Shown: piece after piece, positions 2,567 through 26,969 of the stretch | Position numbering within the stretch: the stretch's first letter is position 1 | Layout of the letters: every line of letters starts with the position of its first letter | DNA from: Impatiens glandulifera | Lineage: Eukaryota; Streptophyta; Magnoliopsida; Ericales; Balsaminaceae | Direction of reading: 5' to 3' | DNA: 64,000 bases | Assembly: GCF_907164915.1 (NCBI RefSeq) | Contig: NC_061862.1 | Coordinates: forward strand, 136,267,520-136,331,519 | Program-made: the position numbers and the translations under genes | Notes under the pieces: model-generated | What the model was told of the DNA's origin: nothing | What the model saw: only the letters and a program-made list of their open reading frames with translations | Database searches by the model: none

Positions 2567-2575
2567 GTCGTCTAC
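2567..2575. repeat. Left target-site duplication of the MULE
   Basis: GTCGTCTAC stands immediately left of the left TIR and is repeated identically at 26961-26969. Nine bases is the canonical MULE duplication length. Confidence 0.92.
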
Positions 2576-2857
2576 CAATTCAGATCTTCTGCTACCGATT
2601 GCTGTGTTCCCCTGTGGCGGACCAATCAGATTGCAGCATTATTAATTTAATAATAAATCAATCTGGGGAGGAGACGGAGCGAGGGAGAATCCGGAATCCG
2701 GGTTTCTGCCCGGGTTCACACCAGACGCCGTTAACGGCAGTGCCTGTTAACGCCAGGAAATAATATAATATTCATATAGCACCCAGATAAGATATCTTCG
2801 CTCAGGGCACCGTGTTAGAGGGAAGGGTGGGATGCGATGGGAGCGAAGATTTACACG
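2576..2857 (+). repeat. Left terminal inverted repeat of the MULE
   Basis: About 282 bp pair with the reverse complement of 26679-26960 with only scattered mismatches. The inner part contains the perfect palindrome GCCGTTAACGGC followed shortly by a second TGTTAACGCC, and then an AGATATCTTCGCT unit of the element-wide palindrome family. TIRs of MULEs carry transposase-binding sites; the duplicated GTTAACG blocks are plausible candidates, which is inference. Confidence 0.92.
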
Positions 2858-4262
2858 CCCGTTGCCATGACCCTCATGTAAACCCCCCATACCCACCCAT
2901 GAGAAGACCGCTTGCCGTTAATGAAAATACACTTACACGGCTATGTAAAGACCAAAATGACAGGGATTTTATATTTCAGTTTATTAAATATTAATTTAAT
3001 TTATTAAAAAACACATGCAGCGATATAATATTCGCTTCAATTAATTCATTCATTTTTTTTTCATTCAATTTTTTTGGCCTTCAGACACTCCGGAGCAAAG
3101 ATATATTTGCTTCAATTAATTTTAATAATAACCTCATGTAAACCCCCAATACCCACCCATGAGAAGACCGCTTGTCTTCCATGAAAATACAATTACACGT
3201 CTATGTAAAGACCAAATTGACATGGATTTTATATTTACGTTTATTAAATATTAATGTAATTTATTAAAAAACACATGCAGCGATATAATATTCGCTTCAA
3301 GTAATTCATTCATTTTTTTTCATTCAATTTTTTTGGCCTTCAGACCCTCGGGAGCGAAGATATATTTGCTTCAATTAATTTTAATACTTATATTTCAGTT
3401 TATTAAATATTAATTCATAATTTTTTTTATTAACTTTATTTAATTTTGTTATTTAATTTTTTTTGCCTGGAGACCCTCAGGAGCGAAGATATATTTTCTT
3501 CAATTAATTTTAATGAAAACATCATGTAAACCCCCCAACCCACACATGAGAAGACCGCCTGCCTGACATGGAAAGACACTTACCCGCCTATGTCAAGACC
3601 AAAATGACATGGATTTTATATTTCCGATTATTAATTATTTATTCAATTAATTGAAGATGACATGCATCAACCGAACAAATCTTCGCCTCAATTACTTGGC
3701 TATTTTATTTTTATTAATTTTATATTTCATTATTTTCGCCTGGAAACCCTCATGAGCGAAGATATATTTGCTTAAATTAATTTTAATGAAAACATCATGT
3801 AAAACCCCCATACCCACCCATGAGAAAACCGTTTGCCTACCATGGAAAGACACATACTCGTCTATGTAAAGACCAAAATAACATGGATTTTATATTTACG
3901 TTTATTAAATATTAATTCAATTAATTGAAGATGACATGCAGCAACCGAACAAATCTTCGCCTCAATTCATTGACTATTTCTTTTCTTATTTTTTTAATTT
4001 CCGTTTATTAATAAATGTTAATTCAATTAATTTAAAATGACATGAAGCGATATAATATTCGCTTCAATTAATTCATTCCTATTTTATTTTTTTTAATTTT
4101 AATTTTTTCGCTGGTAGAGAATATTTGTTCGCCTAGAACATGTTCCATGCAAAATGGATTGAATAGTCGCTTCTCGAGAGAACACTTCTTCGCCCCTGGT
4201 CCCTGTGTCATGTGACATAGAATGAATAGTCGCTTTTCGAAAGAAGACATGTTCGCCCAGGT
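2858..4262 (+). repeat. Left subterminal module array of the MULE
   Basis: Four degenerate head-to-tail copies of a roughly 250-300 bp unit begin near 2873, 3132, 3521 and 3797 (each starting CATGTAAA followed by a C run). Each unit joins a 75-bp block containing CCATGAGAAGACCGCTTG to AT-rich DNA with two imperfect palindromes such as GCGATATAATATTCGCTTC and GAGCGAAGATATATTTGCTTC. Inverted copies are at 25960-26678. No protein-coding gene is visible. It looks like regulatory or transposase-recognition DNA, by position only. Confidence 0.85.
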
Positions 4263-4407: not shown

Positions 4408-5576
4408 ATGGTACGTATTCCTGAATAGTAACTTTTCATATTTAGTATTATGGAACTACTAAACTAGATTCTGTTATGTGATGTTGTTGTCTCTTTAATC
4501 TTTAGGAAACCCTACTCTCAAAATGTCACCTTCAATGTAAATCAATGTTATTTAGGAAAAATTACCTAGTGTTAGGTTTTGGGATATTATTTCCATGAAA
4601 CCCTAGTACATACTAACAAAGACCGTTTTTTTTTTCATGCACGTGCAGGCAACCGCCTCAGTATCCGTCCCAAACTTTGGCAAAGACTGGATTTTATGCC
4701 CAAATCAATTAACAAGTGAAGAGATAGTACTCTTCGTGACATTTCTCCCTTTTTTTTCCATATTGTTTAAGTTTTCATCCTGTTTAACTGAAATATTTAT
4801 GATTGTTCTTAAACAGCACTTGATGCAACAATATGCTAACACATGTGGTGCCACGGTGACAATGAGGTGGCGAGACGATGTGACCCATGTCATAGCATCC
4901 ACCGATTCTAATGGTGGATGCGGTCGCACTATCAAAGTATTGAAGGGCATATTGAACGGGAGTTGGGTCCTTACCATTGATTGTGAGACTCTGTTATTCT
5001 TAACCCTTTACTGTTAACTCAATATTCATTTTCACATATATGAAACTAAAAACACCTATTGCTTTTATACAGGGGTAAAATCATCAATCAGATTTAACTG
5101 TTACGTGGACGAGGAACCATACGAGGTGCAGCGAGATAATCATGGGACTGTGGGCGGTCCAAGAGCTGGCAGAATGCGGTATTTGAACAATGTAAGTTTT
5201 GTCTTATTCCTACTCCTCCATATGATATTGTCCATGATTACTAATAATGTTTTGTATTTTCTTTCAGCTGCCGAAACTCTTTGACAGTTACACCTTCATA
5301 TTTGCAGGGGAATTCATCCCGGCTTACAAACTGGATCTTATGGGGTTTGTAATTGCTGGAGGAGGTACAACTAAAGAAATGGAGAATCCATTTGTCGAGC
5401 CTGAGGACGACAAAACTATAGTTGTATACGACAAGTCTCGGCACGATGTTAATGAACTTGTTTGGGTATTTGAGGCAGAGAATCCTTTGAAGACATATTT
5501 GGATGTGTTTGGTGTTCCTCACACAAGCTTGCTAGAATCCATTGCTGCTTGTGATTTGCAGCCTTTGTTTTTGTAA
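4408..5576 (+). CDS. Tandem BRCT-domain protein, BRCA1/BARD1-like, captured by the MULE
   Basis: Five exons give an unbroken 224-residue protein: 4408-4410 (ATG only), 4649-4726, 4817-4982, 5073-5191 and 5268-5576. All introns are GT-AG. The exon 3/4 junction rebuilds a split Trp codon (W83), which supports the model strongly. BRCT1 spans about residues 14-95 and contains THVIAS (50-55) followed by D57 and G60, and the core NGSWVLTIDW (74-83). A linker with EEPYEV and GPRAGR leads to BRCT2, which starts at PKLFDSYTF (124) and ends SIAACDLQPLFL. In plants this arrangement is that of the C terminus of BRCA1 or BARD1, which binds phosphopeptides in DNA-damage signalling. No RING or other N-terminal part is present. 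BRCT2 is shortened, and the Trp normally found before the final helix is Leu (HTSLLESI). Retained introns point to DNA-level capture. Expression is unknown. Confidence 0.85.
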
Positions 5577-6143: not shown

Positions 6144-8896
6144 ATGGTATGTTTTTGAATGTCATCTATACCTTCTTTACTTTTCGTCCCAACCTTTTCT
6201 ATGTTTTTTGAATACTCGACATGAAATGTTCTGTTCTGTTTGATTATCAGGAAGGAACACATATCAGCGAGAATGATATGGACGAGAATGATATTAATGA
6301 TTTAAGGTAACATTGTTTAACTTCTCCAATTTTTTTAGTGCACATGTAAGCGAAGATCTCTTCACTATTATATTTTTAGATAATATCTTATAAAGTGAAA
6401 CTATATTCGCCTAATATTACAATCTTCATAATGTTGAAGTGAAGCTTTCTTCGCTTATATTGTTTTCATTTTCCAATAATCTACAAGTTCTGGTTAGTTG
6501 AACCTTTATTTTCCACGTGTTCAAATTGAACAGCGAATCTGCTACTTGTCGTCGTCAATTGAATTTCGATGGAAACGGCCAACCTTTGGAGGACATCGAA
6601 GCCAACTTAATTCCACTTTTAGGTAGAGAATTTGAGAGTGAAGAAGAAGGCTACGTATTCTACTTAGCATACGCTAAACTAATAGGATTTGGTATAAGGC
6701 GCAGTTCAAAATATGTAGACAACGAGGGTAAAATACTGGATAGAGTTTTTTGTTGTAGTGCACAGGGTGAACGGGGAAAGGACAAACGTGATGTCTATGT
6801 GAAACGTAGACGTTCTGTGACTCGGTTCTGTTGTGAAGCGAAATTGAGAATAAAGAGGGCAGACAATGGAAAGTTCCAAGTGGTAAATTTTATTAGTGAT
6901 CATAGTCATCCTCTTGCAAGTCCAAAGAAAACTCACCTGTATAGATGCCATAGGAATATTTCTGCAGTTGCAGGCTTACATATCGAGATGGCCACTAACG
7001 TGGGAATTCCTCCTAAGTCATCACATGCTCTAATGTCTAAACAAATCGGTGGAAGGGAGAATCTAGGTTTTCTTCCTGAGGATTACAAAAATTACTTGCG
7101 CACGAAAAGAACCAGAGAGTGTAATTTTGGGGAAACAGGGGGTGTATTAGAGTATTTGCAGAAAAAACAATCCAATGATCCTGGTTTTTATAATGCTTTT
7201 CAACTTGATGCGGACGATTTGATAACGAATATTTTTTGGTGTGATTCCAACATGCGGTCCGATTATTCATACTTCGGAGACATGGTCAGTTTTGACACCA
7301 CATACAAGAAGAATAATGAAGGTCGTCCAGTTGCGCTTTTTGTAGGTGTCAATCATCACAAACAATCAATTATTTTTGGAGCAGCTTTATTATACGATGA
7401 AACTGCGATGACTTTTGATTGGTTGTTTGAGACTTTCACCAAAGCGATGCGTGGGAAAAAACCAAAAACCATCCTTACAGATCAAGACGCGGCCATGGCT
7501 AAGGCCTTGGCGTCTACATGGCCCGAAACAAATCATCGTCTCTGTATTTGGCACATATTTCAAAATGTAGCCATACATCTTAGCTCGGTGTTCCATAATT
7601 TCAGAGATTTTTCTAAGGATTTTTCTTCGTGTATATATGATTTTGAAGAAGAGATAGAGTTTGTTGAAGCTTGGAATCAAATGTTAACAAACTACGGGCT
7701 TGAAAACAACGACTGGTTGAAACGCATGTTTAGCATCAGGCGAAAGTGGGCATTAGTCTATGGACGACAAATGTTTTGTGCTGATATGACGACAACACAA
7801 AGAAGTGAGAGTATGAACAGTATGTTGAAAAGGTACTGCTCCTACAAACACAAGTTTTTAGAATTTTTCAAACACTTTGAAAGACTACTCGATGAAAGAA
7901 GATATGATGTGTTGAAGGCTGATTTCAAATCAATTACCAGCCAACCAAGTCTTAACTATCCAGTTTTGATCTTAAAGGATGCCTGCAAAGTTTACACCCC
8001 AGAGGTCTTTAAGTGCTTTGAACAACAATGGTTTATGTCGCATGATTGTGGTGTAGAAATGTTAGAGGATGTCGAAACACACAGAAAATACAAGGTAACA
8101 CCCCACACTAGGAGATGCTCTCATACAGTTACAGTTCATAAGAATGATGATAAGAATATCGAGTGTAGCTGTTGTAAATTTGAATTTGGAGGGATTTTGT
8201 GTGCTCACATCCTAAAGATTTTCACAACGATTGACGTGTTGAAGATTCCTCTGGCGTTGATATTGAAGAGGTGGACAAGAACCGCCAAAGATGGAATATT
8301 GGGAACTGACCCATCGTGGACAGTAGTAATGTTGATCCGAGTGAACTTCATAACATAAGATACAGAGATTTGTGTGGGTTGTCCATGCATTTATTTACCA
8401 AGGCAGCCGAAAGAGATGACACTTATAAGCATGTCAGGGAAATTATGCTTAGCCAGTGTACGTTTGTGGATAAAAAATTACAGGAGAGTATAAATATGCA
8501 AACTCCACCAACCGGTGTATCATGTTCTGCCGTGGGTGCCCCTGTTCAAGCGAAAGGAATCAAAACTAAGAAGCCAACAAAGTCTGGTAAGAGAAGGAAA
8601 GGTGGACTGGAGAAGAACTCAAGAAAAAGAAAATCAACAAGAATAACTAGTGAATCACATATTCCGGTATGAATTTGCTGACTTACCTTCTTTACTAATA
8701 ATTGTGTTATTAATATTCATATAATAACATACTTTTAAATAAATTTGATATTCCTTTCCAGCCATCAAATGCAATGCCAACGACAACTCCTCAGTTCTCA
8801 ACTCCTCAACAATGGGACAAAAGTTTCAGCATGGACGCCAATACTCCGTTCACTGTTCTTTTGTCATCTCAACTATCGAATTCCAGTTTCATGTGA
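6144..8896 (+). pseudogene. FAR1/MuDR-type MULE transposase, one frameshift
   Basis: Exons: 6144-6146 (ATG only), 6251-6306, 6534-8666 and 8762-8896. The exon 2/3 junction rebuilds a Ser codon, and the last exon ends NSSFM-stop in frame. Reading across one frameshift gives about 775 residues. An N-terminal FAR1-type DNA-binding domain (about 53-147) has the Cys pairs and the closing HSH. The MULE transposase core (about 250-370) has D in FDTTY (near 271), D in LTDQD (near 334) and C-x2-H in CIWHIF (near 356). A SWIM zinc finger follows (CSCC...CAH, about 563-580), then a Lys/Arg-rich tail. It would cut and rejoin the element at its TIRs in the nucleus. The frame shifts between about 8291 and 8318: the reading frame ends at 8358, and the downstream frame continues from 8316 with family-like sequence. 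This is either a single-base indel that truncates the tail after the SWIM finger, or a sequence error. Confidence 0.9.
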
Positions 8897-9731: not shown

Positions 9732-12700
9732 TCATCGACTTATCCATTTACGGCAGGAATTGTAGACCTTGCTCCTGGCCTTGCTGAGCTCCGAGCCAAT
9801 GACACGCCAACAATATTCCATCCTCAATGTCTTTATTTGGTTCTTTACATTTCTTTTAACGCCAAAGCCAGTTTTCCACCCCTTCACCTCACCTTCATAC
9901 GTCTCCATGTGTCTCATGCAAAAAATGCCGCAGTCAGTGTAATTCTTTGAATCCTGCCATGGCAATTTCAAACATATCTTTTCCAAACCGCCATACTTTT
10001 CAGCAAGAACGGGGTCTACGTCGTTCATATATTGTTGAATGTAGTCATCCTGATACATCATTACAAACAACATTATGTAATGTATTTTAGTGCTACTAGA
10101 ATTCCAAAATTGAACTATTTTAAATTTTAATTGTAGTGTCATACCAAGATTTGTGCATTCTTATATCTTCTTTCGAAGGGCGATTGCATAGGTGACTGCC
10201 GGTTATCAATTACTTGAAATTGCCTTTGTATGAAGTTATAGCAAACCAGGTAGAAATGTCTGTCATCAATGATTGGGAAAAACAACTGTGGATAGAATTA
10301 ATAAAGATTAGATTTGAACTGAGTGGTAAATGCTATTATAAGGTATCACAGCCAGAGATGTACTTACGAGGTCCACTTCCTAGAGGTCCATTTTCGAAAT
10401 TTGGAAAGCCCGACCTTCTAGACAGAACCTGTCATTGAATTTGTCTCAGGTAGTTATCCCACCTTCACGAAAAATCTGTTTACAGCAGTCTTTAGTCTCA
10501 CAAGAATAACATAATTGATAAATAACAGTGCTAGTACAACTTACGGTGAGCACGGTTGTGTAGAAAATCTTCTTGTAACGACGTTTTACATTTTTCCTAG
10601 AAAGGTCGTGCAAAATGTATGACCAAACGTCAATAATCATACTGTCTACCCAGGTTTGATCAGCCATTGTAGGCATGTCCCCGCGCGTCACGTGTAGACA
10701 TAGGTTATCCGCAATAAATAACATTTCACTGCATGAAAACAGCAAAACATGTTTGAAAATAGTGTACAAATCATATTTTTTAGGAATAATTAAGCATTTG
10801 CAGGAAACATTACCTTGGATCAAGTCCTCCAGCAAATATGAAACCCACAAAAATCTTCTGAAAGTTTGTCAGTTGTTTTACATCCCTAAACATTTTATTG
10901 AAATATGGGGTTTTCAAAGCTGGAGGCAATTCCAATGCTTAAAGCCATTCTTTCATTTGCATGTTTGGACGAGAAGAGCTAGTTTGAAGTGGCGGTAGTA
11001 GACTGGAGATGCCTTCTTCCGGTTCATTCTTTACTATCTCCAAAGAAGAGGCAGTTTGAAGTGGCGGTGGTAGACTGGATATGCATTCTTCAGGTTCCTT
11101 TTTAACTATCGCCAAAGAAGGGGAGTTGTTGTTGGTTTCGGTTTTGATGACATCGGTTAACCAATCCGTTTTCAAATTTCGGGGGGCTTTTCTTTGGACA
11201 TTTAAGGCCTTTGAAGGTCCTGCTTCCTCTTTTTTGGGGATAATTTGGGTAGGAGGCAAGGCTGGGGTGGTTGGAGTGCTGGTGTTCGTGTTGGTTTCTG
11301 TTTTGGGAGTAATTGGGTTGGGTTTGGGTTTGGCTTGTGCCATTGGAGGGGCTGGTGTTTTGAGTGGAGGAATGGGGTTGGGTTTGGCTTGTGCCATTGG
11401 AGGGGCTGGTGTTTTGAGTGGAGGAATGGGGTTGGCTTTGGCTTGTGCCATTGGAGGGGTTGGGGTTTTGAGTGGAGGAATGGGGTTGTCTATGGCTTGT
11501 GCCATTGGAGGGGTTGGGGTTTTGAGTGGAGGAATGGGGTTGGCTTTGGCTTGTGCCATTGGAGGGGTTGGGGTTTTGAGTGGAGGAATGGGGTTGGCTT
11601 TGGCTTGTGCCATTGTAGGGGGTGGGGTTTTGAGTGGAGGAATGGGGTTGGTTATGGCTTGTGCAATTGGAGGGGTTGGGGTTTTGAGTGGAGGAATGGG
11701 GTTGGCTATGGCTTGTGCAATTGGAGGGGGTGGGGTTTTGAGTGGAGGAATGGGGTTGGCTATGGCTTGTGCAATTGGAGGGGGTGGGGTTTTGAGTGGA
11801 GGAATGGGGTTGGCTTTGGCTTGTGCCATTGGAGGGGGTGGGGTTTTGAGTGGAGGAATGGGGTTGGCTTTGGCTTGTGCCATTGTAGGGGGTGGGGTTT
11901 TGAGTGGAGGAATGGGGTTGGCTTTGACTTGTGCCATTGGAGGGGTTGGGGCTGGGGTTTTGGTATCTGTTTTGAGTGGAATGGGGTTCTTGTGGGATTG
12001 GGGTGTTGGTGTGAGGGTGGTTTGTGTGTTGTCTAGGGTGTTTAGAGGAAGGGTGTTGGATTTGGCTTGGTTGTCGGCGTTGATATTTTTTTGGATGTTG
12101 GGAGAAAGGGTGCTCTTGTTGGATGGGGTCGTTGGTGGGTGGTTGGCTTTTGTCTTTGTTTCGGTGGTGGGGGTGAATGTGTTCTTGTTGGATGGGGCCG
12201 TTAGATTGGTGTTGGCAGGGTTGTTGGTAGGAATGGTGTTGCCTTTCGCTTGGGTGGTGGCTTCTGTGTTGGGGTTAATGCCACTTCCTCTGGGCTGCTG
12301 CTTTTTTCTTTGGTCCAGGCTCCGCTGTAAGCCTTCCCTCAGGATTGCATTGGAGTTTAGTACCGTGGCCAATGGCTCAAATGCAGACTGTACAAGTTCC
12401 ATGGCGTTTATCTGGTGCATCTCATTCAGATATTTAGCCCCTTGTGCCAATTCTTCTGCAGCGGCCGCAACCTTCCTAAAACATGATGCCAGGTTTTGTG
12501 TAATTGGAGCATGCTCAGTTGGATGGTCATCTCCAGATTGTGGTGGTGTTGGCTGCACATTTTGTTGTATCGGTGGTTGCTCATTCGGAATGGCTATGCG
12601 AGCAACCACCCTACCATGTCCAAACCCCCCCTGTGCAGCCTCATACTCAACCCTTTCGTACATCTTCTTCTCGTCCCAGCATCCTAAAATAGGAAAACTC

Positions 12701-13950
12701 CTTGAGATCTGACTATTTACCTTGAACTCAACCACACGGTCCAAGTAGCACAACTGATACATTAGCATGAACAAATATATGTTACGTTCAAACTCATCAA
12801 AAAATTATGAATATACAACCTCCAGCAAATAGATTTCTACACTCACCAAAAGAAAGGTTAATGGTCCATGGAAATAGGATGTCTTCTTTGCTTTCCACTT
12901 ATAAACACTGTCGACTAGCCCGTCTAACGTGAACTTGCACCAGTTGTAGTCTTTGATTTTAGATACATCCTGGAGGGATTTCAGTACTTTGAATCTGTAC
13001 ATAAAACAGGAGTGACTGAAGCCATTGAAAATGATATTGAAGTTCTAAATGAAATCACAGAATTAATGCTAGGTTCTTTGGGTATACCTGCACTGTGGAT
13101 TTTGGGATGTCCACAAAAAACTGGATACAACAAACACCACGAAGTCCATCTTGAAGTTACTGTCTCCTTCGGTGTTCTGTAGAATTTTCTCAGGCATTTG
13201 GTAGGTTGAAGTACCTCCACTGTTCTCGTATCCCCATCTCCTTCTCCACGCCGTGAGATGGTCCTTGTACACCTTGTCGCCCGTGTGATTTCCTAAACAC
13301 TCTGCCACTACTAATTCCCCTCTGGGTATGTTCAATACACATTGAACATCCTCTTCATCAATCTGCATCTCCTCTCCACTGTGTAGGACGATGCTCATCC
13401 TTCTGGGATTGAATAGACTCACAATGCACCGTGAGAATTGAAGTGGGCTATTTGATATGCCAAGTGACAGAAGGGAACCAAATCCTATGTCCCTCACAGC
13501 CTGCTTCTGTTCTTCCGATAACCTTTTAATCAGGTGATGAAGTAACGATGGAGAGGTTCTGCTCTTGAAATCAACATCAGGGTCACGAGTCCTTCTTCTT
13601 TTCTTCGTAACCTGGGACTCACTAAGTGCTTCATTCGCCGCGTTGGCCAGAATATCCAGTGGTGTCGTGGGCGTGCCTGATGCCTCGGGTTTTCTTTTCC
13701 TTTGTTGAACACTACATTATCATTAGCAAATTGGATTACTTCCCTAATCCAAATATAGGCAAATTTGTACATTTTCTAACATTAGCGTAATTACCTTAGT
13801 GTGTTAACTTCCGTCGTGGATTCAGTATATGGAACTATTTGCATATCGGAATCCTGATTCTGAGATGATAGAGTCACATTTAGATTCGAACGAAGTAAAC
13901 TAAGAAAACGAAATAGACCCAAGCATGCAACCATAAACACTTCTTACCAT
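9732..13950 (-). pseudogene. ULP-like SUMO-protease-family gene 1 (KIU-type), interrupted
   Basis: Minus-strand exons: 13950-13948 (ATG only), 13859-13795, 13699-13088, 12994-12847, 12753-10814, 10728-10545, one unresolved short exon, 10285-10145 and 10049-9732; about 1,170 residues. The N terminus has a basic RKRKP stretch and the conserved region IGFGSLLSLGI...DEEDVQCVLNIPRG seen in plant transposon Ulp1-like proteins (DUF1985-like). A Pro-rich linker with 18-residue repeats follows. The C-terminal C48 protease has His in RHFYLVC, a candidate Asp in VIDNR, the Gln in PWQDS and the Cys in YTDCGIF, so the triad is present. C48 enzymes cleave SUMO or related modifiers. Lesions: an in-frame TAA at 10939-10941 (after MKEWL), with homologous sequence resuming at once, and no clean exon between 10545 and 10285. 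Intron positions differ from the paralogue at 21932-25797. Confidence 0.85.
11320..11965 (-). repeat. 54-bp coding minisatellite, Pro-rich repeats of ULP-like gene 1
   Basis: About twelve tandem copies of an 18-residue unit, consensus KTPxPPMAQAKANPIPPL, lie in the large exon. Copies differ by a few substitutions (AQAIAN, AQAITN, AQAKPN). The Pro and Ala content suggests an extended, disordered linker between the N-terminal domain and the protease. The plus strand is also open across the array, but that is a by-product of the period and composition. Confidence 0.92.
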
Positions 13951-15104: not shown

Positions 15105-17163
15105 CATTGAAGCGAAGATTTATTCGCTTCATATAAATTTCTCATAAATTGCAATTTTCATTAAGAACGGATATATGTTCACTTAAAATTGAAAAAAAAA
15201 TGAATGTTAATTTTGGCATTTACATACAAGAATTAATTTTGGCATCACTAGAAATTAATGCAATTCTCAGGGGTAAAGGGTCTTCTCATGTAAGGGTTAG
15301 TGTGTTTCCATGTAACTAATAAAGCGAACATTTATTCGCTTCCGACCCACACTCCGTACAGAGAGCATGTTTCAAAAAATTAAAATGTTAATATGTTATT
15401 TCCAAGTCTTTGATTAAATTGGTCTGACGCTATAATTGAATTATATGAATTTCTTTAATTCATAATATTTTAAATGTAAATTATATTCGATATGATTTTG
15501 CTCATATAGAAATAATAGTATATCTAATAAAAATTTATACTTATTTCTTAACATAATCTTATCTATATAGAAATAATATTTAATAAAATATAATTTTAAT
15601 TACATTATCATACCAATACTTTATCAATAATGAAATATGTAATATAATATCAATACTTTATTAAAATATAATATTTAATAATTTATGTGATGTGACAAGA
15701 AGACTGCACACTGTTCCGATTTGACATATCATCACGGGCTTAATACTTTTTCTGAATCCATAGATATGAAATGATTTCTTTATAGGTTTTTATACAAAAA
15801 CACACTACTTTTTCAATGATGAAATATAATTTATAAATGATGTGACAACACAAAGGACTGCCCACTGTTGCGCCAAGACAGTTCGGCGAATATTTGTTCG
15901 CTGCATGTCATTTTTAATAATTTCATATAATATTCAATAAACGGAAATTTACAATACATTTAATTTTGGTCTTCACATACACGGGTTAGTGTCTTTCCAT
16001 GACAGACAAGCGGGCTTCTCATGGTGGTGTTGGGGGGTGTACACGGGGGACAGGTGGAATACAATTGTGGCGAAGATTTCTACGCTCATGGAGTTATTGT
16101 AGCTACATCTCTTCGCTGTTAGAATCAATTTTTTTATATGTTACACTTACTTCAAAATTCATGTTAATGTTGGTAATTTGTGGGATATTAAAATGTTTTC
16201 AGGCTTAATGTTTTCAATAAAAATATATTTTCATTCTTATTGTTATTGAAAACAATTTCCTTCACATAGCAATAATATGATATTGAATATAATTTTATAA
16301 TTATTTTTGAAAATATTTTTATTAATGTGGAAATTATTTATTATTTAATATAATGTTAATGACAATATTGAATTATTTGTTTTATTTAATATAAGTGTTA
16401 TTACTTTTTCGTTAATGAAATTACTTTTTCATGATGTGACCAAAGGTCTGCAAACTGTTCCGATTTGATATTTGATCACGGGAAATTTACTTTTTCTGAA
16501 TCAATACATCTAAATATTTTATGAATGAATAAAACATATTTTCTGTTTGCTATAAATGTAGGGATTACATAAACAATCTTAGTCGGCAGCATGAAATATT
16601 TCGTGAGCGTTGTTGTTGAGAGTGTGTGTTTTTTTAAGATAGTTTGTTGGGATATATTATTAGGGAGATTCTCTGTGATGGAAAACTTGTACAATGAAGA
16701 TCAACTCGTGGAAAACATCTTCAGTTACCACGAATGCTAGATACCTCAAGTAGAAACTACCGATCAAATGAAGATCATTCGTGTCCACTGCTGGTGGGAA
16801 GCGCCAACTGTGGGAGATTCCCTGGGATGGAAAACATCTCAAGAGATAACTCAACACGTGTATGACCCCAGTTATGCGTGAGAGAGCCGCTGTGGTCGCT
16901 TCAATGGAGATTCCTTGAAGCTGGAGATGCCGATGAATAGTGTTAAAATGTACAAATGTTTATGAAACGTAGAAATGTTTATGAAACTTGTAATGAAATT
17001 TTGTACGTCGAATTATAATGAATATTTGTTATTTATATTTTCATGCACATGTCATTAAACATTTATAAAATATCGAATTTGTTAGAAATAATAAAGTATT
17101 ATCATATCTACTCTTCTGGCTAAGTATACGTTTCCCATAAGTGATATCATTGCCATAATTGTA
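15105..17163. repeat. Tandem duplication, copy 1
   Basis: Collinear with 17164-19115 at an offset of about 1,941-1,948 bp over most of its length. Both copies start with AAGCGAAGATTTATTCGCTTC preceded by ATTCATT. Copy 1 has about 110 extra bp near 15240-15350, holding another palindrome unit and part of the 75-bp module. A reading frame at 16591-16881 is interrupted by TAG at 16738-16740. No real gene is supported. Confidence 0.88.
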
Positions 17164-19115
17164 ATTCATTCAAGCGAAGATTTATTCGCTTCATATTATT
17201 TGCTCATAATTTGCAATTTTCACTGAACACGGATATATGTTCGCTTCTTTTCATCTATAATTAGATGAATTCATGTGTTTAAAAATTGAAAAAAAAATTA
17301 ATGTTAATATGTTTACGAAGATTTATTCGCTGCCTGTCATTTGCAAGTCTTTGATTAAATTGTTCAGACGCTATAATAGAATTATATGAATTTCTTTAAT
17401 TCATGATATTTTAAATGTAAATTATATTCGATATGATTTTGCTCATATAGAAATAATAGTATATCTAATAAAAATTTATACTTATTTCTTAACATAATCT
17501 TATCTATATAGAAATAATATTTAATAAAATAAAATGGTAACATTACACTATTGTAACAATACTTTATCAATAATGAAATATTTAATATAATATAAATACT
17601 TTATTAAAATATAATATTTATTACTTTTTGTGATGTGACAACAATACTGCACACTATTCCGATTTGACATGTCATGACGGGCTTAATACTTTTACTGAAT
17701 CCATAGATATGAAATGATTTCTTTATAGGGTTTTATACAAAAACACACTTCTTTTTCAATGATGAAATATAATTTCTACATGATGTGACAAAACAAAGGA
17801 CTGCCTACTGATCCGCCAAGTCATTTGAGCGAATATTTGTTCGCTTCATGTCAGTTATAATAATTTATTATAATATGAAATAAACGGAAATTTAAAATAC
17901 ATTTAATTTTGGTCTACACATACACGGGTTAGTGTCTTTCCATGACAGACAAGCGGGCTTCTCATTGTTGTGTTTGGGGGGTGTACACGGGGGACAGGTC
18001 GAAAACAATTGTGGCGAAGATTTCTTCGCTTATGGAGTTAGTTTAGCTCAGATCTCTTCGCTGTTCGAATTATTTTTTTATATGATACACGGAACTTCAA
18101 AATTCATGTTAATTTTGGTAAATTGTGGGATATTGAAATGTTTTCAAGCTTAATGTTTTCAATAAAATATATTTTCATTCTTATTTATATTGAACATAAT
18201 TTCATTCATATAGCAATAATATTATATTGAATATAATTTTATAATTATTTATGAAAATATTTTTATTAATGTAGAAATAATTTATTATTTAATATAATGT
18301 GAATGACAATATTGAATTATTTCTTTTATTTAATATTATTAAGTGTTATTACTTTTTCGTTAATGAAATAACTTTTTCATGATGTGACCAAAGGACTGCC
18401 AACTGTTCCGATTTGATATTTCATCACGGGAAATTTACTTTTTCTGAATCAATACATCTAAATATTTTATGAATGAATAAAACAGATTTTCTGTTTGCTA
18501 TAAATGTAGGGATTACATAAACAATCTTAGTCGGCAGCATGAAATATTTCGTGAGCGTTGTTGTTGAGAGTGTGTGTTTTTTTCAGATAGTTTGTTGGGA
18601 TGTATCGTTTGGGAGATTCTCTGTGATGGAAAACTTGTACAATCAAGATCAACTGGTGGAAAACATCTTCAGTTACCACGAATGCTTGATACCTCAAGTA
18701 GAAACTACCGATCAAATGAAGATCATTCGTGTCCACTGCTGGTGGGAAGCGCCAGCTTTGGGAGATTCCCTGGGATGGAAAACATCTCAAGAGATAACTC
18801 AACAGGTGTATGACCCCAGTTATTTGTGAGAGAGCCGCTGTGGTCGCTTCAATGGAGATGCCTTGAAGCTGGAGATGCAGATGAATATTGTTAAAATGTA
18901 CAAATGTTTATGAAACGTAGAAATGTTTATGAAACTTGTAATGAAATTTTGTACGTCGAATTATAATAATTATTTGTTATTCATATTTTCATGCACATGT
19001 CATTAAACATTTATAAAATATCGAATTTATTATAAATAATAAAGTATTATAATATCTACTCTTCTGGCTAATTATACGTTACCCATAAGTGAAATCATTG
19101 CTATAACTGTAATCT
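17164..19115. repeat. Tandem duplication, copy 2
   Basis: Second copy of the 2-kb unit, still closely matching copy 1 by eye. It carries palindrome units at 17168, 17320, 17825 and 18010 and a 75-bp module at 17925-18000. An open 96-codon frame at 18539-18829 exists, but the two copies differ mostly at amino-acid-changing positions, so I do not call it a gene. Confidence 0.88.
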
Positions 19116-19753: not shown

Positions 19754-20919
19754 CTAGTCTGATTCATGAGAGGATGACTCGTCTATCGGTCCTGTCAGCG
19801 ACACGACCTCATGTTCGATGACGGGTGGAATGTAAAGCTGAATGGCTTCGTTCACAGCATTGATCCATCGGTTGGGGATTAAAACCGTCAAAGAATTTTC
19901 AATTATTGATGTGTACTCTAAGTAAAGATGGTGAGGAGTAAGCATGAAGTCCTCCGGAGGATTGTGTCCATTTGAAGGTAGGGGATTCCGTAGGCCAAAT
20001 TGTCTATATATGACAGTTGTGCAGTAGGAGGTAGTTCCCTCAAGGCCCAACAAAATGATGAATGGAGAACCCCTCATCTCGTACATCATTTCAGTAAAGA
20101 GATACCACAGAACAATGAACCTAATTGGGTGAATATCCGAAATAAAATTCGGAGGCACGAGTCCATTGACCCTTTGCACTTGTAGATTGGCAAAGGAAGT
20201 GTAGGGAATTGAAGGACGGGGCAACCAATGCAACTTGTCTAACAACCAGAGGTATAGAACCAAAGGTGATCCACGGCGAGAATAGTTGTTTTCCTCGGGA
20301 ACAAATTCGTTAAGACCAAGTAATGTCTCAGCAAGTACCAGGCTAGCCAGGTTTGGGGCGTTTCCCATCAGTGCAGGAACTACCTGCAGGATCCTTTCCG
20401 AAGGCCGTCGTCCTGCAGCCGGACATAAAAAAAATGAGCCAGAACCACAAACATGATCAGTTTGCTTTGTGTGTGGTTGATGGTCCTCTCAGCTCCCTGG
20501 ACACGCCAAATGTACTCGTCTATGTTTGTCATATTGAGAAATCCATGTTGGAGGGTAAACAAAAGAGCATCAAACATTGTACATCCATAGAAGTTGTCGC
20601 AAATGTGGACGGCCATATGAGGATCTTGATGGACAGGCAAAATCATGAGTGCAAGACTACCACACCTAAGGATTGAAGCAAAGTCCTCTATCGTCGGGCA
20701 TATGTGCATTTCCCCAATAACAAAAGAACGAGAGTCCGTATTCCATCTGCTTTGCATGTGGGCCATCAGTCTGTCGTTAACGTTTATTCGTAATAGAGGC
20801 AGAATCTCATCTACATGATAGACACTAAAAGGGACAGGGTCATCGTTGATCAGACTTAAGTATCGCTCCAGCTGTTGCTGCGATAAAACCAGCATGTCTG
20901 GGTCCATCTCTACATCCAT
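19754..20919 (-). pseudogene. Plant mobile domain/DUF7745-like gene, one frameshift
   Basis: A single-exon minus-strand frame starts at ATG 20919 (MDVEMDPDML) and runs to 20380, where a TAG ends it. The next frame takes over in the same block, continuing ...LQVVPALMGNAPNLASLVLAE and ending HESD-stop at 19754. Together they make about 385 residues. The segment RWNTDSRSFVIGEMHICPT followed by IEDFASILRCG resembles the W...F.F...E..PT.EE...IL core of plant mobile domain/DUF7745 proteins, which are often encoded by or derived from transposons and have no firmly known biochemical role. The shift maps to about 20383-20400, near the codons for LRKGS; one base is missing or added. It sits between the tandem duplication and the second ULP-like gene. 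The family assignment is moderate. Confidence 0.7.
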
Positions 20920-20984
20920 CTTATGAGTTTTACACTAAATGACTGAAGGAAAGACACCGGTAGATAGAGATTTGGGAAGGAAAG

Positions 20985-21931: not shown

Positions 21932-24900
21932 CTAATATCTTGATCTAATTGCAGTCTTTAACTTGAACCTATTGACATTGTGCTCAGACATAAGAATTCT
22001 GTATAAATATTTTATCCTCAACGTACTCAAAGCTTCTCCGGCCTTCAAAAGAACAAGAGAAAGTATAAGAACATCTAAAATTGTTCAATGTCATCTACTA
22101 AAATATGGTATAACACTTACATTATTTTCGTTGATGTCAATAGACCAATTCTTCGCCGTTCCTCTATATGTTTCCATATGTCTCATTAAATATACACCAC
22201 AGTCTGTCTTGTTTGTTTGGTCTTGCCAGTCCAGCTTTGGGGCCGTTATCCTGTATTTTTTAACCTTTGCGGCCATTCTTTCCATGCCTTGACTTAACAA
22301 GAATTTCACAAAACAATCGAGTTGTTTACTCAAAGTGACATACTTGTCCATAATTTTCATTCTATAAGGACGGCCGGAGTTGTCTAGTACAATGATTTTG
22401 GAGTCCTTAATATTCACACAAACAAGGAAGAAATGTCGGGAAAAGACAACGGGTAGGAATATCTACAAAAAGAACACAAACATTTATTAATTTATTGCAT
22501 ATTCGTTACTTGGAATTGAGGGATATGTACAGACCACGTCAGAGAAGATGAGGTCTTCTTTTGTGACTTGGTAGTTTTTCATGTCTTCTTCAATGGATTG
22601 GGAAAATAAGGTGGCATCATGCTGCATATTAACCTGCAAAATAAGGGCAGAGCATCAAAGTCATGAACATTGAAGGATACATAGCAAAAAAAAAGAGATG
22701 CACTTACATGTGAAATTGATGAGAAACAAATTATTCTTGGTTCATGCCTTGGCAACCTACGGCATTTGAAGTGCACAATTATGGACCAAGCGTCAATCAC
22801 TTCGCTCGCAATTTCTTCACACATTTTCATTGAACGAAGTAATTGACGGGTGATATTACCAGGTGCACCTTCGTACAGAACGTCACTACAAAATACATTC
22901 ATTTAGAAGACCATAACTAACTAATTTCATTTTTCAAATTTCTAAAACAATGCGAACTAACTTACAATGGAGGCAGGTCTTCATCAAACACAAAATCGGC
23001 TAATCTATGTTCCTTGTTGGTTATTTTGTGGTCCAACATATCCGCAACCTGTTGCATGTAAGGGGATCGAAGGTGCACAGGAATTTTTGAGATCTTCCTC
23101 TTAGGATATTCTTTAATGTTGATGCGTCCCCCCCCCATCACCTTCATCTTCATCTTCAGAAGATTCAACGGCCTTAGAAGCCTCAACCTGTTGCTTGCCT
23201 TCACCCTGATCACTTGGTGCAACAGACTGAGCTTGGGGTTCCTCAACATTTTCCTTCCCTGCACCATGATCATTTGGTTCAAAATGCTGAGATTTGGGTT
23301 CCTCAACCTGTTGCTTGCCTTCACCCTGATCACTTGGTGCAACAGACTGAGCTTGGGGTTCCTCAACATTTTCCTTCCCTGCACCCTGATCATTTGGTTC
23401 AACATGCGGAGATTTTGGTTCATCAACCTGTTCCTTCCCTTCACCCTGATCATCGTCTTCAACAGTGGTTGTCTGCACTTTGTGTGCCCCATCCGGTTCC
23501 TTCCCTTCACCCTCATGATCAGTTGGTTCAACACTGGGTGAGTCATCTTTGTTGGGCAGAAATGAATCCTCATGTTCGTCCTGCTGAGGAGGGGGTGACT
23601 TGGCTTGACTGTGCTGAAATACAGCCTCTACATCTTCCTGTTCAAGAAGGAGTGATTCATCTTCAATGTCCTGACCTACATCCTCAACATATTTCGGTTG
23701 AACAGGGGGTGACGGAGCTTCATTGGGCAGAACGGCAACATCGAGATCATTCTGTTCAACGTGATCTGATGGATTTTCTTGATTTGACATCACTGCATCC
23801 TCAAAATCATTCAGTTCAGCCAGTGCTGGTGGATTGTCTGCATGGTCCTCCACTGCAGTCTCACATGTGTAATCAACCAGGGGACTATTGATTTTCAAGC
23901 CCGCACACTGTAAAGTGTCCCCAAGTGCCTCCCTTGTAGGATCTTCCACACCTACATGAACCGCACCATCGTTCACCACCTTCAAGTGTTTCATGAACCC
24001 TTCAGACTCTCTGAGGTTCAGGAAACCGGCCTCAAAAAAGGGCTTCGGATCGATGTTGCGTTTCTCCAACTCCCCTGATAGGTAATTCAGCTGTTGGGCT
24101 GTATCTTTAAAAGTTTGTAGGATTTTGGATGTCAACATCTGTACATTATGAAAAACAGATTTCATTAATCTTGAAAACAGGATAATAAAGAACAATGGGA
24201 GTCAATTTATTGTTTCCACATACCTCATTATCGTCTTCTTTTACTTCAACCGAGTCAACTGGATTCTCGGGTTGTTTAACTGCTAGGCGCGTCCTTGCCC
24301 TGCCCAGCCCAAAACCACCGGCACGAACTTCTAAGTTGGTAAACTCTAACACGGTGACGTCATCCCAACAAGAGATTATTGGAAATTTTCTTTCGTAGGG
24401 GATACGTTCACCTTCCACAAAAACACCATCTAGGTAGCAAATCTAGAGTAAAGGAATGGGAAACATGTTAGAAAATATTACATATCTATAAATCATATAT
24501 AAGAGAGGCAACAATACTTACCGATAAAAGGGTTATAGGTCCATCGAAATATGGATTTTTATCTTTACTTGCTTTTTCTTTCCAACTTCTTACACTGTCA
24601 ACCAATCGTTGTAGTGTAAAGTGGCACCAGTTCAGTTCCTTTATGTTATCAACCTCCATTAAGGATTTGAGAATTTTGAACCTGAAATGAAAAAAATACA
24701 TTTGTCAGTATTCACAAATACAATTAGATATATAATAGGTTTGAATACATGTTTACCTGGCTCGTGAATTTTGAACTGGACATAAAAAACTTGAGACAAC
24801 GAAGTCTATTTTGAAATCGTTGTCTGCACTTGTGTTATTTAATATCTTGGGGATCATAGAAAGTGTTTCGGGAGCTTTTGAGTCTTCCCCGGTCCATCTG

Positions 24901-25797
24901 GTCTTCCAATCCCTCAAGAAATTAAAATAATCAGGGTCCTTAGTCTTGTCCAACCCAACGGACTCGACTACGTTCATTGCCCCTCTAGGGAGGTTCATCA
25001 CGAGCTGTACGAGATCTTCATCGATACGGATCTCATCACCGTTGGACAATACCAGAGAACTCTTATCCGGGTCAAAACATTGGATTACGTGTCTGGAAAA
25101 ATGAGCCAGGCACTTGGAGACGCCCATTGTAAGAAGAGAACCAAACCCGATTTCCTTCACGGCTTCCCTCTGTTCTACGCTCAATTTAGGAATGAGTTGA
25201 GCGAGGCCATGAGGTGATGATCTGGTTAGAAATGTCAGTTTACGTTTCTTGATGGTTTTGGTTGTTTGGGGAGATGGTGGAAACTCTTCATCGAATGGGG
25301 TAGTAGACGGAGAAATATTAGTGGTTTCTGGGGGTGGTTCTGGTAACTCTTCATCGACTGTTGGAGTGGAGGTAGGAATAACATTGGGTTTTTTTTGGGG
25401 GGGGAAAGGTGGTGTTAAAATCTCATCAGTACCTGCAGCAACATCAGTAGCTTCGACAGTAACTGTGGAAACTGATTCAGCAGTCGATGACGACTTAGTA
25501 TTCGTCTTCGGATTTCTCTTCCTCTTCCTTTCATATGTAAAGGTATTAAACCTCGAAGTCATTAATTTTGGTGGGATAGCATAAATCAGTATTATACGAA
25601 ATAAATTGAATAAACATGTGTAAAATTAGTATAAACACAATAAGATTAACATACCTCTCTAGTTTATTGCTGGGATTGACGTTGGATGCCGGAGTGGGGG
25701 CAGTTTCGTTTTCGTTTATGCTCCTACAAACTTGCAAGACGACCTCTCGGGAGTCGATGGGATCCACTTCCATGTTGTTGCCTTGGTTCCCCGACAT
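21932..25797 (-). pseudogene. ULP-like SUMO-protease-family gene 2 (KIU-type), near intact
   Basis: Nine minus-strand exons: 25797-25655, 25527-24757, 24681-24522, 24442-24224, 24138-22966, 22885-22708, 22633-22538 (or to 22535), 22462-22121 and 22042-21932. Phases agree at every junction and give about 1,063 residues. N-terminal region: IGFGSLLTMGV...DEDLVQLVMNLPRG, as in the paralogue. The middle is acidic, with two perfect 40-residue repeats near 23200-23440. The C-terminal C48 protease has His in RHFFLVC, Asp in VLDNSG, Gln in DWQDQ and Cys in TDCGVYLMRH; the last exon ends RYSRS-like (AIRSRY). The only lesion I find is a run of nine C (plus strand) at 23128-23136; the downstream frame fits eight. 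That is one slipped base, or a sequence error, so the gene may be functional. Predicted role: removing SUMO or a related modifier from proteins. Confidence 0.88.
23128..23136 (-). other. G9 homopolymer causing the only frameshift in ULP-like gene 2
   Basis: The gene-sense run of nine G follows codons for DEDEGD. With nine, translation ends THQH-stop within a few codons. With eight, it continues GGRINIKEYPKRKI into the next conserved part and the downstream exons. Runs of this kind vary by slippage and are often misread. Confidence 0.85.
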
Positions 25798-26678: not shown

Positions 26679-26960
26679 CGTGTAGATCTTCGCTACCATC
26701 GCATCTCACCCTTCCCTCTGACACGGTGCCCTGAGCGAAGATATCTTATCTGGGTATCATATGAATATTATATAATTTCCTGGCGTTAACAGGCGCTGCC
26801 GTTAACGGCGTCTGGTGTGAACCCGGGACGAAACCCGGATTCCGGATTCTCCCTCCCTCCGTCTCCTACCCAGATTGATTTATTATTAAAATAATAATGC
26901 TGCAATCTGATTGGTCCGCCACAGGGGAACACGGCAATCGGTAGCAGAAGATCTGGATTG
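26679..26960 (-). repeat. Right terminal inverted repeat of the MULE
   Basis: Reverse-complement partner of 2576-2857, with the same GCCGTTAACGGC palindrome and the same terminal GATCTGGATTG. Homology to the left end continues inward as the subterminal module array. Confidence 0.92.
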
Positions 26961-26969
26961 GTCGTCTAC
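26961..26969. repeat. Right target-site duplication of the MULE
   Basis: GTCGTCTAC stands immediately right of the right TIR and is identical to 2567-2575, so the element has not been rearranged at its ends since insertion. Confidence 0.92.

Follow-up and report, generated by a model that had tools for sequence, protein, structure and literature searches.

MULEs are known for capturing fragments of host genes and for carrying a few accessory genes (mudrB, VANB, VANC, Ulp1); mudrB is not known to be related to BRCT. Kaonashi/KIU elements, the Ulp1-carrying MULEs of Arabidopsis, have been described as non-TIR (PMC13317346), DUF1985 has been described as a domain of VANC proteins (PMC5735166), and MULE target duplications have been given as 8-11 bp (PMC6446971). 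Plant BARD1 and BRCA1 are reported to be required for normal somatic homologous recombination (PMC9791218). BRCT is named beside transposon words in PMC11511760, PMC1855986 and PMC5788517, and the word is absent from the main texts of a 2026 gene-capture review (PMC13317346) and a 2019 MULE survey (PMC6446971). A literature search on BRCT or BARD1 together with MULE, transposon or gene capture, made mostly outside subscription journals, recognised no BRCT-bearing plant transposon among the papers listed. How a DNA transposon influences the repair of its own excision gaps is an open question, for which a BARD1-type BRCT gene carried by transposons offers a concrete, testable molecule.

Here we describe such a gene in two MULE families, W and M, of Impatiens glandulifera. 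The window (the whole stretch of DNA that was analysed, 64,000 nucleotides) contains one element of the W family.

The window element and its BRCT gene

The window element is a MULE of 24,385 bp (2576-26960). The window matches two other genome copies starting exactly at 2576, and the inverted partner of this end stops at 26960. The outer parts of the TIRs, at 2576..2857 on the + strand and 26679..26960 on the - strand, are about 282 bp long and 94% identical, and the element ends (CAATTCAGATCTTCTGC... and CAATCCAGATCTTCTGC...) are flanked on both sides by the 9-bp TSD GTCGTCTAC (2567..2575, with an identical copy at 26961..26969), a 9-mer that occurs just twice on the + strand of the window, exactly at the two ends. 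Self-BLAST of the left arm revealed tandem sub-terminal repeats (2870..4105, + strand) with inverted partners at 15.9-16.0, 17.8-18.0 and 26.1-26.7 kb. A FAR1-type MULE transposase gene (6144..8358, + strand; exons 6144-6146, 6251-6306 and 6534-8358) gave Pfam matches to PF10551 (3e-29), PF03101 (4.3e-20) and SWIM (6.3e-8). It has one base fewer near 8310 than three other W copies (E8, E4 and C6a) and therefore runs off frame at its C terminus, giving 627 aa against the 732 aa open in E8. A sequence-only reading of this DNA had called the element a MULE without giving its ends; the ends, TIRs, TSD and transposase bear this out.

Further frames lie on the - strand. A Ulp1 protease (Peptidase_C48) frame at 22094..22462 (PF02902, E 2.3e-8) is matched at 64.5% over 31 aa by a second, Ulp1-like frame (9732..10160), for which a Pfam search at 0.01 gave no family. 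Two other antisense frames, 13069..13716 and 24756..25625, are partners of one another (42.6% over 195 aa) and matched no Pfam family; DUF1985, an initial impression in the window element, was discarded as Pfam gives no such match. A 621-aa open frame at 10939-12804 contains by eye about 11 proline-rich NPIPPLKTP units and has no Pfam match, and two overlapping antisense frames at 19757-20934 include one weak match to DUF7745 (E 0.0047, below cut-off). The right arm also carries two direct repeats of about 1.9 kb (15441-17380 and 17382-19100), each 88-90% identical to a single segment of C6a, and a decayed copia-like retrotransposon, recognised by eye, adjoins the left end of the MULE (223-2130). 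The non-coding DNA of the element is dense in TTCGC/TTCGCT, often as near-palindromes, and looks like the target array of an element-encoded DNA-binding protein. For TTCGC, which was chosen in the light of a 7-mer scan of that same sequence, the density is 5.66 per kb in non-coding sequence (62 in 10,955 bases), 0.81 in coding sequence (5 in 6,172) and 0.73 outside the element (29 in 39,500).

Upstream of the transposase and in the same direction lies a five-exon BRCT gene (4408-5576, + strand), whose four introns are all GT...AG and whose 224-aa spliced frame has no stop ahead of the terminal TAA. Exon 1, from the splice reading, is the ATG only (4408..4410, + strand), with TATATA 137 bp upstream (4271). 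The spacing is nearly the same in the other five W copies, where TATATA lies 129-132 bp ahead of the CTCCACA in front of the ATG. Exon 2 (4649..4726, + strand) keeps its AG/GT borders in all six W copies, with a 1-nt gap (C6a) or a base change (C6b) in the surroundings of the acceptor AG. Exon 3 (4817..4982, + strand) was placed by splice reading and holds the first BRCT domain (PF00533 at residues 20-88, E 3.8e-10, above cut-off), and splice reading and comparison of the W copies gave exon 4 (5073..5191, + strand) and exon 5 (5268..5576, + strand), the latter with the putative second BRCT domain and the stop. The second BRCT received no Pfam call and aligns over its length with plant BARD1-type proteins. 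The stop-free five-exon gene of the earlier reading is thus real, its 4982/5073 junction being exact. Chance reading frames are ruled out by the splice structure, the Pfam match and the presence of the same gene in five other element copies.

Among proteins of solved structure, the tandem BRCT of human BARD1 scored best (5.8e-15), followed by BRCA1 (3.8e-12); the human alignment covers the product up to residue 171 of 224 and so includes the second BRCT in part. The 224-aa query found four matches in the protein database (two from Escallonia at 45%, Acacia at 43% and, over a shorter stretch, Oxalis at 39%), and the three best, at 43-45% identity, are plant BARD1-type proteins and the closest of the long matches. 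A two-sequence profile search returned 46 proteins, several of them named BARD1 by their source (Vitis P0016, Durio P0021, Tanacetum P0022), and its longer matches are mostly 35-43% identical to the M protein. We prefer BARD1 to BRCA1 as the source because the human BARD1 chains have the top score and the named plant matches are BARD1; names and scores are the grounds for this choice, since plant BRCA1 and BARD1 of full length fell outside the lengths that the protein search covered. It agrees with the BRCA1/BARD1-like character claimed at first. A zinc-finger domain (PF13771) precedes the BRCT in P0002, P0010 and P0016; in the transposon product, which begins 19 residues before the Pfam BRCT match, the RING finger and zinc-finger region are absent. 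Judged by its sequence, the product is BARD1-derived and not a BARD1. When four host-like sequences (P0024, P0025, P0029, P0034) are translated unspliced, they break by eye where the introns of the transposon gene lie, which indicates that the host material was taken up as genomic DNA, introns included, and not as a transcript. Both this mode of capture and the new start exon, now seen to be the ATG-only exon 1, had been proposed by the sequence-only reading.

Other copies and the second family

The left end, searched against the genome, yielded 1257 seeds, 40 of which were scored; 39 besides the window were found at 92-98% identity. We compared six W elements: the window element, E8, E4 and E1, paired as whole elements, and C6a and C6b, left parts on C6. 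E8, E4 and E1 had been picked by their ends and not by BRCT, C6a came from a BRCT search and C6b is its neighbour. The four elements with both ends read all have perfect 9-bp TSDs (ATTATATAT in E8, ATTATTTAA in E1, TTAACTATG in E4 and GTCGTCTAC in the window). The retention by other copies that the earlier reading wished to see checked was found throughout, with the BRCT gene at the same place in all six elements read and 94.6-99.0% nucleotide identity in the other five. Its frame is intact in the window and E8; E1 has one stop, E4 has 7 extra bases, and C6a and C6b have shifts. Transposase sequence is likewise present in all six (partial in E1, cut by the end of the stretch in C6b, with many stops in C6a), and in E8 both genes are open.

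The M family was recognised through a genome search with PF00533, in which 150 of 646 seeds were scored, mostly near-identical 171-bp BRCT exons by eye. Sixteen loci were selected by BRCT exon score or as examples of identical exons, and in every one the gene could be recognised as an ATG-only exon 1 followed by exons 2-5, with intron positions as in W. Seven frames are intact; lesions elsewhere include loss of the start (L016) or of a donor (L013), a stop and an insertion (L024). Thirteen loci hold a near-full MuDR-type transposase (718-729 of 729 aa; PF10551, 5.4e-23, and PF03108, the MuDR DNA-binding domain) and most of a C48 protease (PF02902, 4e-27). Transposase is absent from L012 and incomplete in L021 and L023, and all three keep an intact BRCT gene. 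DUF1985 is present in L012, and in L009 the transposase frame starts about 1.2 kb after the BRCT stop. The M ends (GGGAAATTTGATGAAATGGCC...) are flanked by 8-bp TSDs in the two loci with both ends found (ATTTAAAC in L012, GACACAAC in L021), and each end of these two matches the reference end (L009) over 288-289 bp at 93-96%. The TSDs of both families fall within the MULE range.

A 26-mer from M exon 3, with two or fewer mismatches, occurs at 182 places genome-wide (reversed control, 0), and a genome search with Escallonia BARD1 gave 1302 seeds, 123 of them scored, some of which, such as C729, C2:40701757 and C1:109665689, are spaced from W ends as expected. Among the matches listed for C1, none of the Escallonia-search places coincides by eye with a place of the M exon-3 pattern. 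With these counts as lower bounds, the BARD1-derived BRCT gene is carried at hundreds of places in the I. glandulifera genome. The initial proposal of a captured fragment or accessory gene in one MULE therefore stands as regards the capture and fails as regards the single element, since the gene is resident in two families. Three loci were set aside by eye as other host BRCT genes, multi-BRCT and phosphatase-like (L001, seen in L025; L002, in L026; and L027).

Between W and M the BRCT proteins are 58% identical, and an 821-bp nucleotide alignment of the genes gives 67% (E 7e-71). The transposases, compared over 482 aa, share 17% identity; in an eight-protein comparison, identity is 22% for the C48 proteases (107 aa, E 0.03) and 29% for the antisense frames (49 aa, E 0.005). 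W-type transposases have relatives at 63-64% identity (P0047-P0049) in Zingiber, a monocot, and Salvia, which is odd for the phylogenetic distance.

Selection and possible function

The BRCT gene is under purifying selection between the two families. Over 217 codons dN is 0.33 and dS 0.76, giving an omega of 0.44 (0.34 in the first BRCT, 0.57 in the second); among neutral simulations, 0, 0 and 2 of 200 reached this value or less for kappa 1, 2 and 4. Inside the recent M bursts no constraint is visible in shared variants: 33 are nonsynonymous and 7 synonymous (N/S 4.71, 16 copies), or 15 and 5 when L013 and L015 are left out (N/S 3.0, 14 copies), against 3.62 expected without selection. Shared variants point toward constraint in W only, on few changes (9 nonsynonymous to 6 synonymous). 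Variants seen once, nonsynonymous to synonymous, stand at 38:17 in M and 12:6 in W, and pooling the pairwise comparisons inside each family gives an N/S rate ratio of 0.73 for M and, from three rows, 0.48 for W. The question of neutrality raised by the earlier reading therefore receives a divided answer, the gene not being neutral between families and looking neutral in recent M copies. Such a pattern fits selection on a few active lineages while most copies decay.

Against a working gene is the fact that most sampled copies are broken, just 2 of 6 in W and 7 of 16 in M being intact. It could thus be that the BRCT sequence is a passive passenger, captured as a fragment in the manner of Pack-MULEs, multiplied together with the element and never put to use; gene-fragment capture by MULEs has been described as common (PMC13317346), and in L012, L021 and L023, which keep BRCT without all or part of the transposase, the gene may indeed be one. 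Yet a start-to-stop gene with all its splice sites remains complete after a W-M dS of about 0.75, the same gene sits in two families with very different transposases, and none of the six W elements read lacks it, so that we consider a passenger unlikely overall despite the broken copies and the neutral-looking variation of the M bursts.

I. glandulifera and I. noli-tangere are reported to show a Ks peak at 0.25 and to have separated an estimated 26 million years ago (PMC12598466). The W-M dS is about three times this Ks, and by this rough scaling the gene would be expected in W and M alike in each of the two species.

As to what the protein might do, we tentatively propose, as a possibility and not as the likely outcome, that it steers repair. 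By binding phosphorylated break-response partners at excision gaps, or by competing with the host's BARD1, it would turn repair in the element's favour. Binding of phosphorylated partners is suggested because the protein, though without RING and zinc-finger parts, retains the BRCT core and, in the phosphate pocket, Arg-Thr-x-Lys. At the positions that we take to form the BRCT phosphate pocket, the Thr and Lys of the R-T-x-K stretch are kept in five of five transposon rows, and in the same five rows the pocket Ser has become Asn. For BCP4 of Arabidopsis, Gln, Thr and Asn are predicted to contact the phosphoserine, and binding is reported to be almost lost when three predicted contacts are changed (PMC11014961). 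These contacts do without Ser, and its loss in the transposon BRCT is therefore compatible with binding; the protein may bind phosphopeptides despite the change to Asn.

The main rival to a role in repair is one in anti-silencing or chromatin targeting, in which the BRCT protein would act beside the Ulp1 and VANC-like genes and not at breaks. The M family carries DUF1985 and C48, and the TTCGC array in W non-coding DNA resembles the VANC target motifs described for VANDALs (PMC5735166). Against this, the W antisense frames have no Pfam match to DUF1985, TTCGCT occurs 0 times in 9.9 kb of the M element L009, and nothing ties BRCT itself to silencing; we regard such a role as improbable.

Origin of the gene and comparison with known systems

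The W and M genes have in common the ATG-only first exon and all four introns. In a tree of eight transposon rows from both families and 19 plant host rows, all host rows being from other plants, the transposon rows fall on one side of a branch (support 100/100) with a stem of 1.01 changes per site; the point at which they attach among the host rows has support of 50/51. Seventeen residues are invariant in five transposon rows and occur in no host row at the same column (9-15 of 15 rows present). They include a change from GS to PN in the first loop, which we take to be the phosphate-pocket loop.

The ATG-only exon common to both families is the strongest sign of a single capture, which, like the subsequent transfer and the function, is a part of the explanation that we infer. 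Since the transposases are 17% identical and the BRCT proteins 58%, the gene most likely moved between MULE families after capture. Two separate captures by W and M, of the same host gene or of a shortened paralogue in which the host already had the ATG-only exon, would be distinctly less probable. The 17 derived residues might in that case belong to the BARD1 of Impatiens itself, the host rows compared being from other plants, but the common first exon and the long, fully supported common stem count against it. That we are dealing with an ordinary host gene, with a MULE inserted into or beside it, is refuted: the intron positions do agree by eye with host BARD1-like sequences, but the gene lies inside TIRs and TSD and recurs inside elements at unrelated sites.

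We therefore favour, as the probable history, one old capture of BARD1 that became a resident accessory gene of MULEs and passed between W and M. A MULE would have taken up genomic DNA with the final exons, and the introns between them, of a BARD1-type gene of the host, and these exons would have gained a new ATG-only first exon. The resulting stand-alone tandem-BRCT gene, of 224-229 aa, now resides upstream of, and codirectional with, the transposase in both W (FAR1-type, 9-bp TSD) and M (MuDR-type, 8-bp TSD). Matches in cotton and Hibiscus (56-74% over short stretches) were not counted as transposon copies, because they resemble pieces of BARD1 genes; by eye, P0023, P0027 and P0031 look like such pieces with zinc-finger-region sequence, and P0035, P0036 and P0039 look like BARD1 pieces within START-domain proteins.

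A more far-reaching and rather doubtful proposal is that the BARD1-derived tandem BRCT is a portable selfish module. After a single capture it would have been under selection in transposons for tens of millions of years and have been handed between MULE families with unrelated transposases, and it might steer repair at excision breaks, or dampen host BARD1, in such a way that elements are recovered instead of lost. The presence of the same BARD1-derived gene in two MULE families, in hundreds of copies, points to an accessory gene that moves between transposon families with very different transposases, and suggests that transposons can retain a repair module taken from the host and pass it among themselves.

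By sequence, the closest described relative is the C-terminal tandem BRCT of plant BARD1 (ROW1), which has by eye the same intron positions; the transposon gene differs in lacking the RING and zinc-finger parts, in its new ATG-only exon, in its 17 residues of its own and in being borne by transposons at hundreds of places. As in Pack-MULEs, captured host genomic DNA with introns lies inside MULE ends, but here it forms a complete new gene beside the transposase, in two families and constrained between them. Kaonashi/KIU MULEs and VANDALs (VANA, VANB, VANC) likewise combine a MULE transposase with extra genes, including Ulp1 (C48). Unlike Kaonashi/KIU, W and M have long, clear TIRs and their extra gene is a BRCT gene; the likeness to VANDALs lies in the DUF1985 of M and the non-coding motif arrays of W. 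MuDR, with its mudrA transposase and mudrB accessory gene, offers the same pairing of transposase and accessory gene, and the M transposase carries PF03108.
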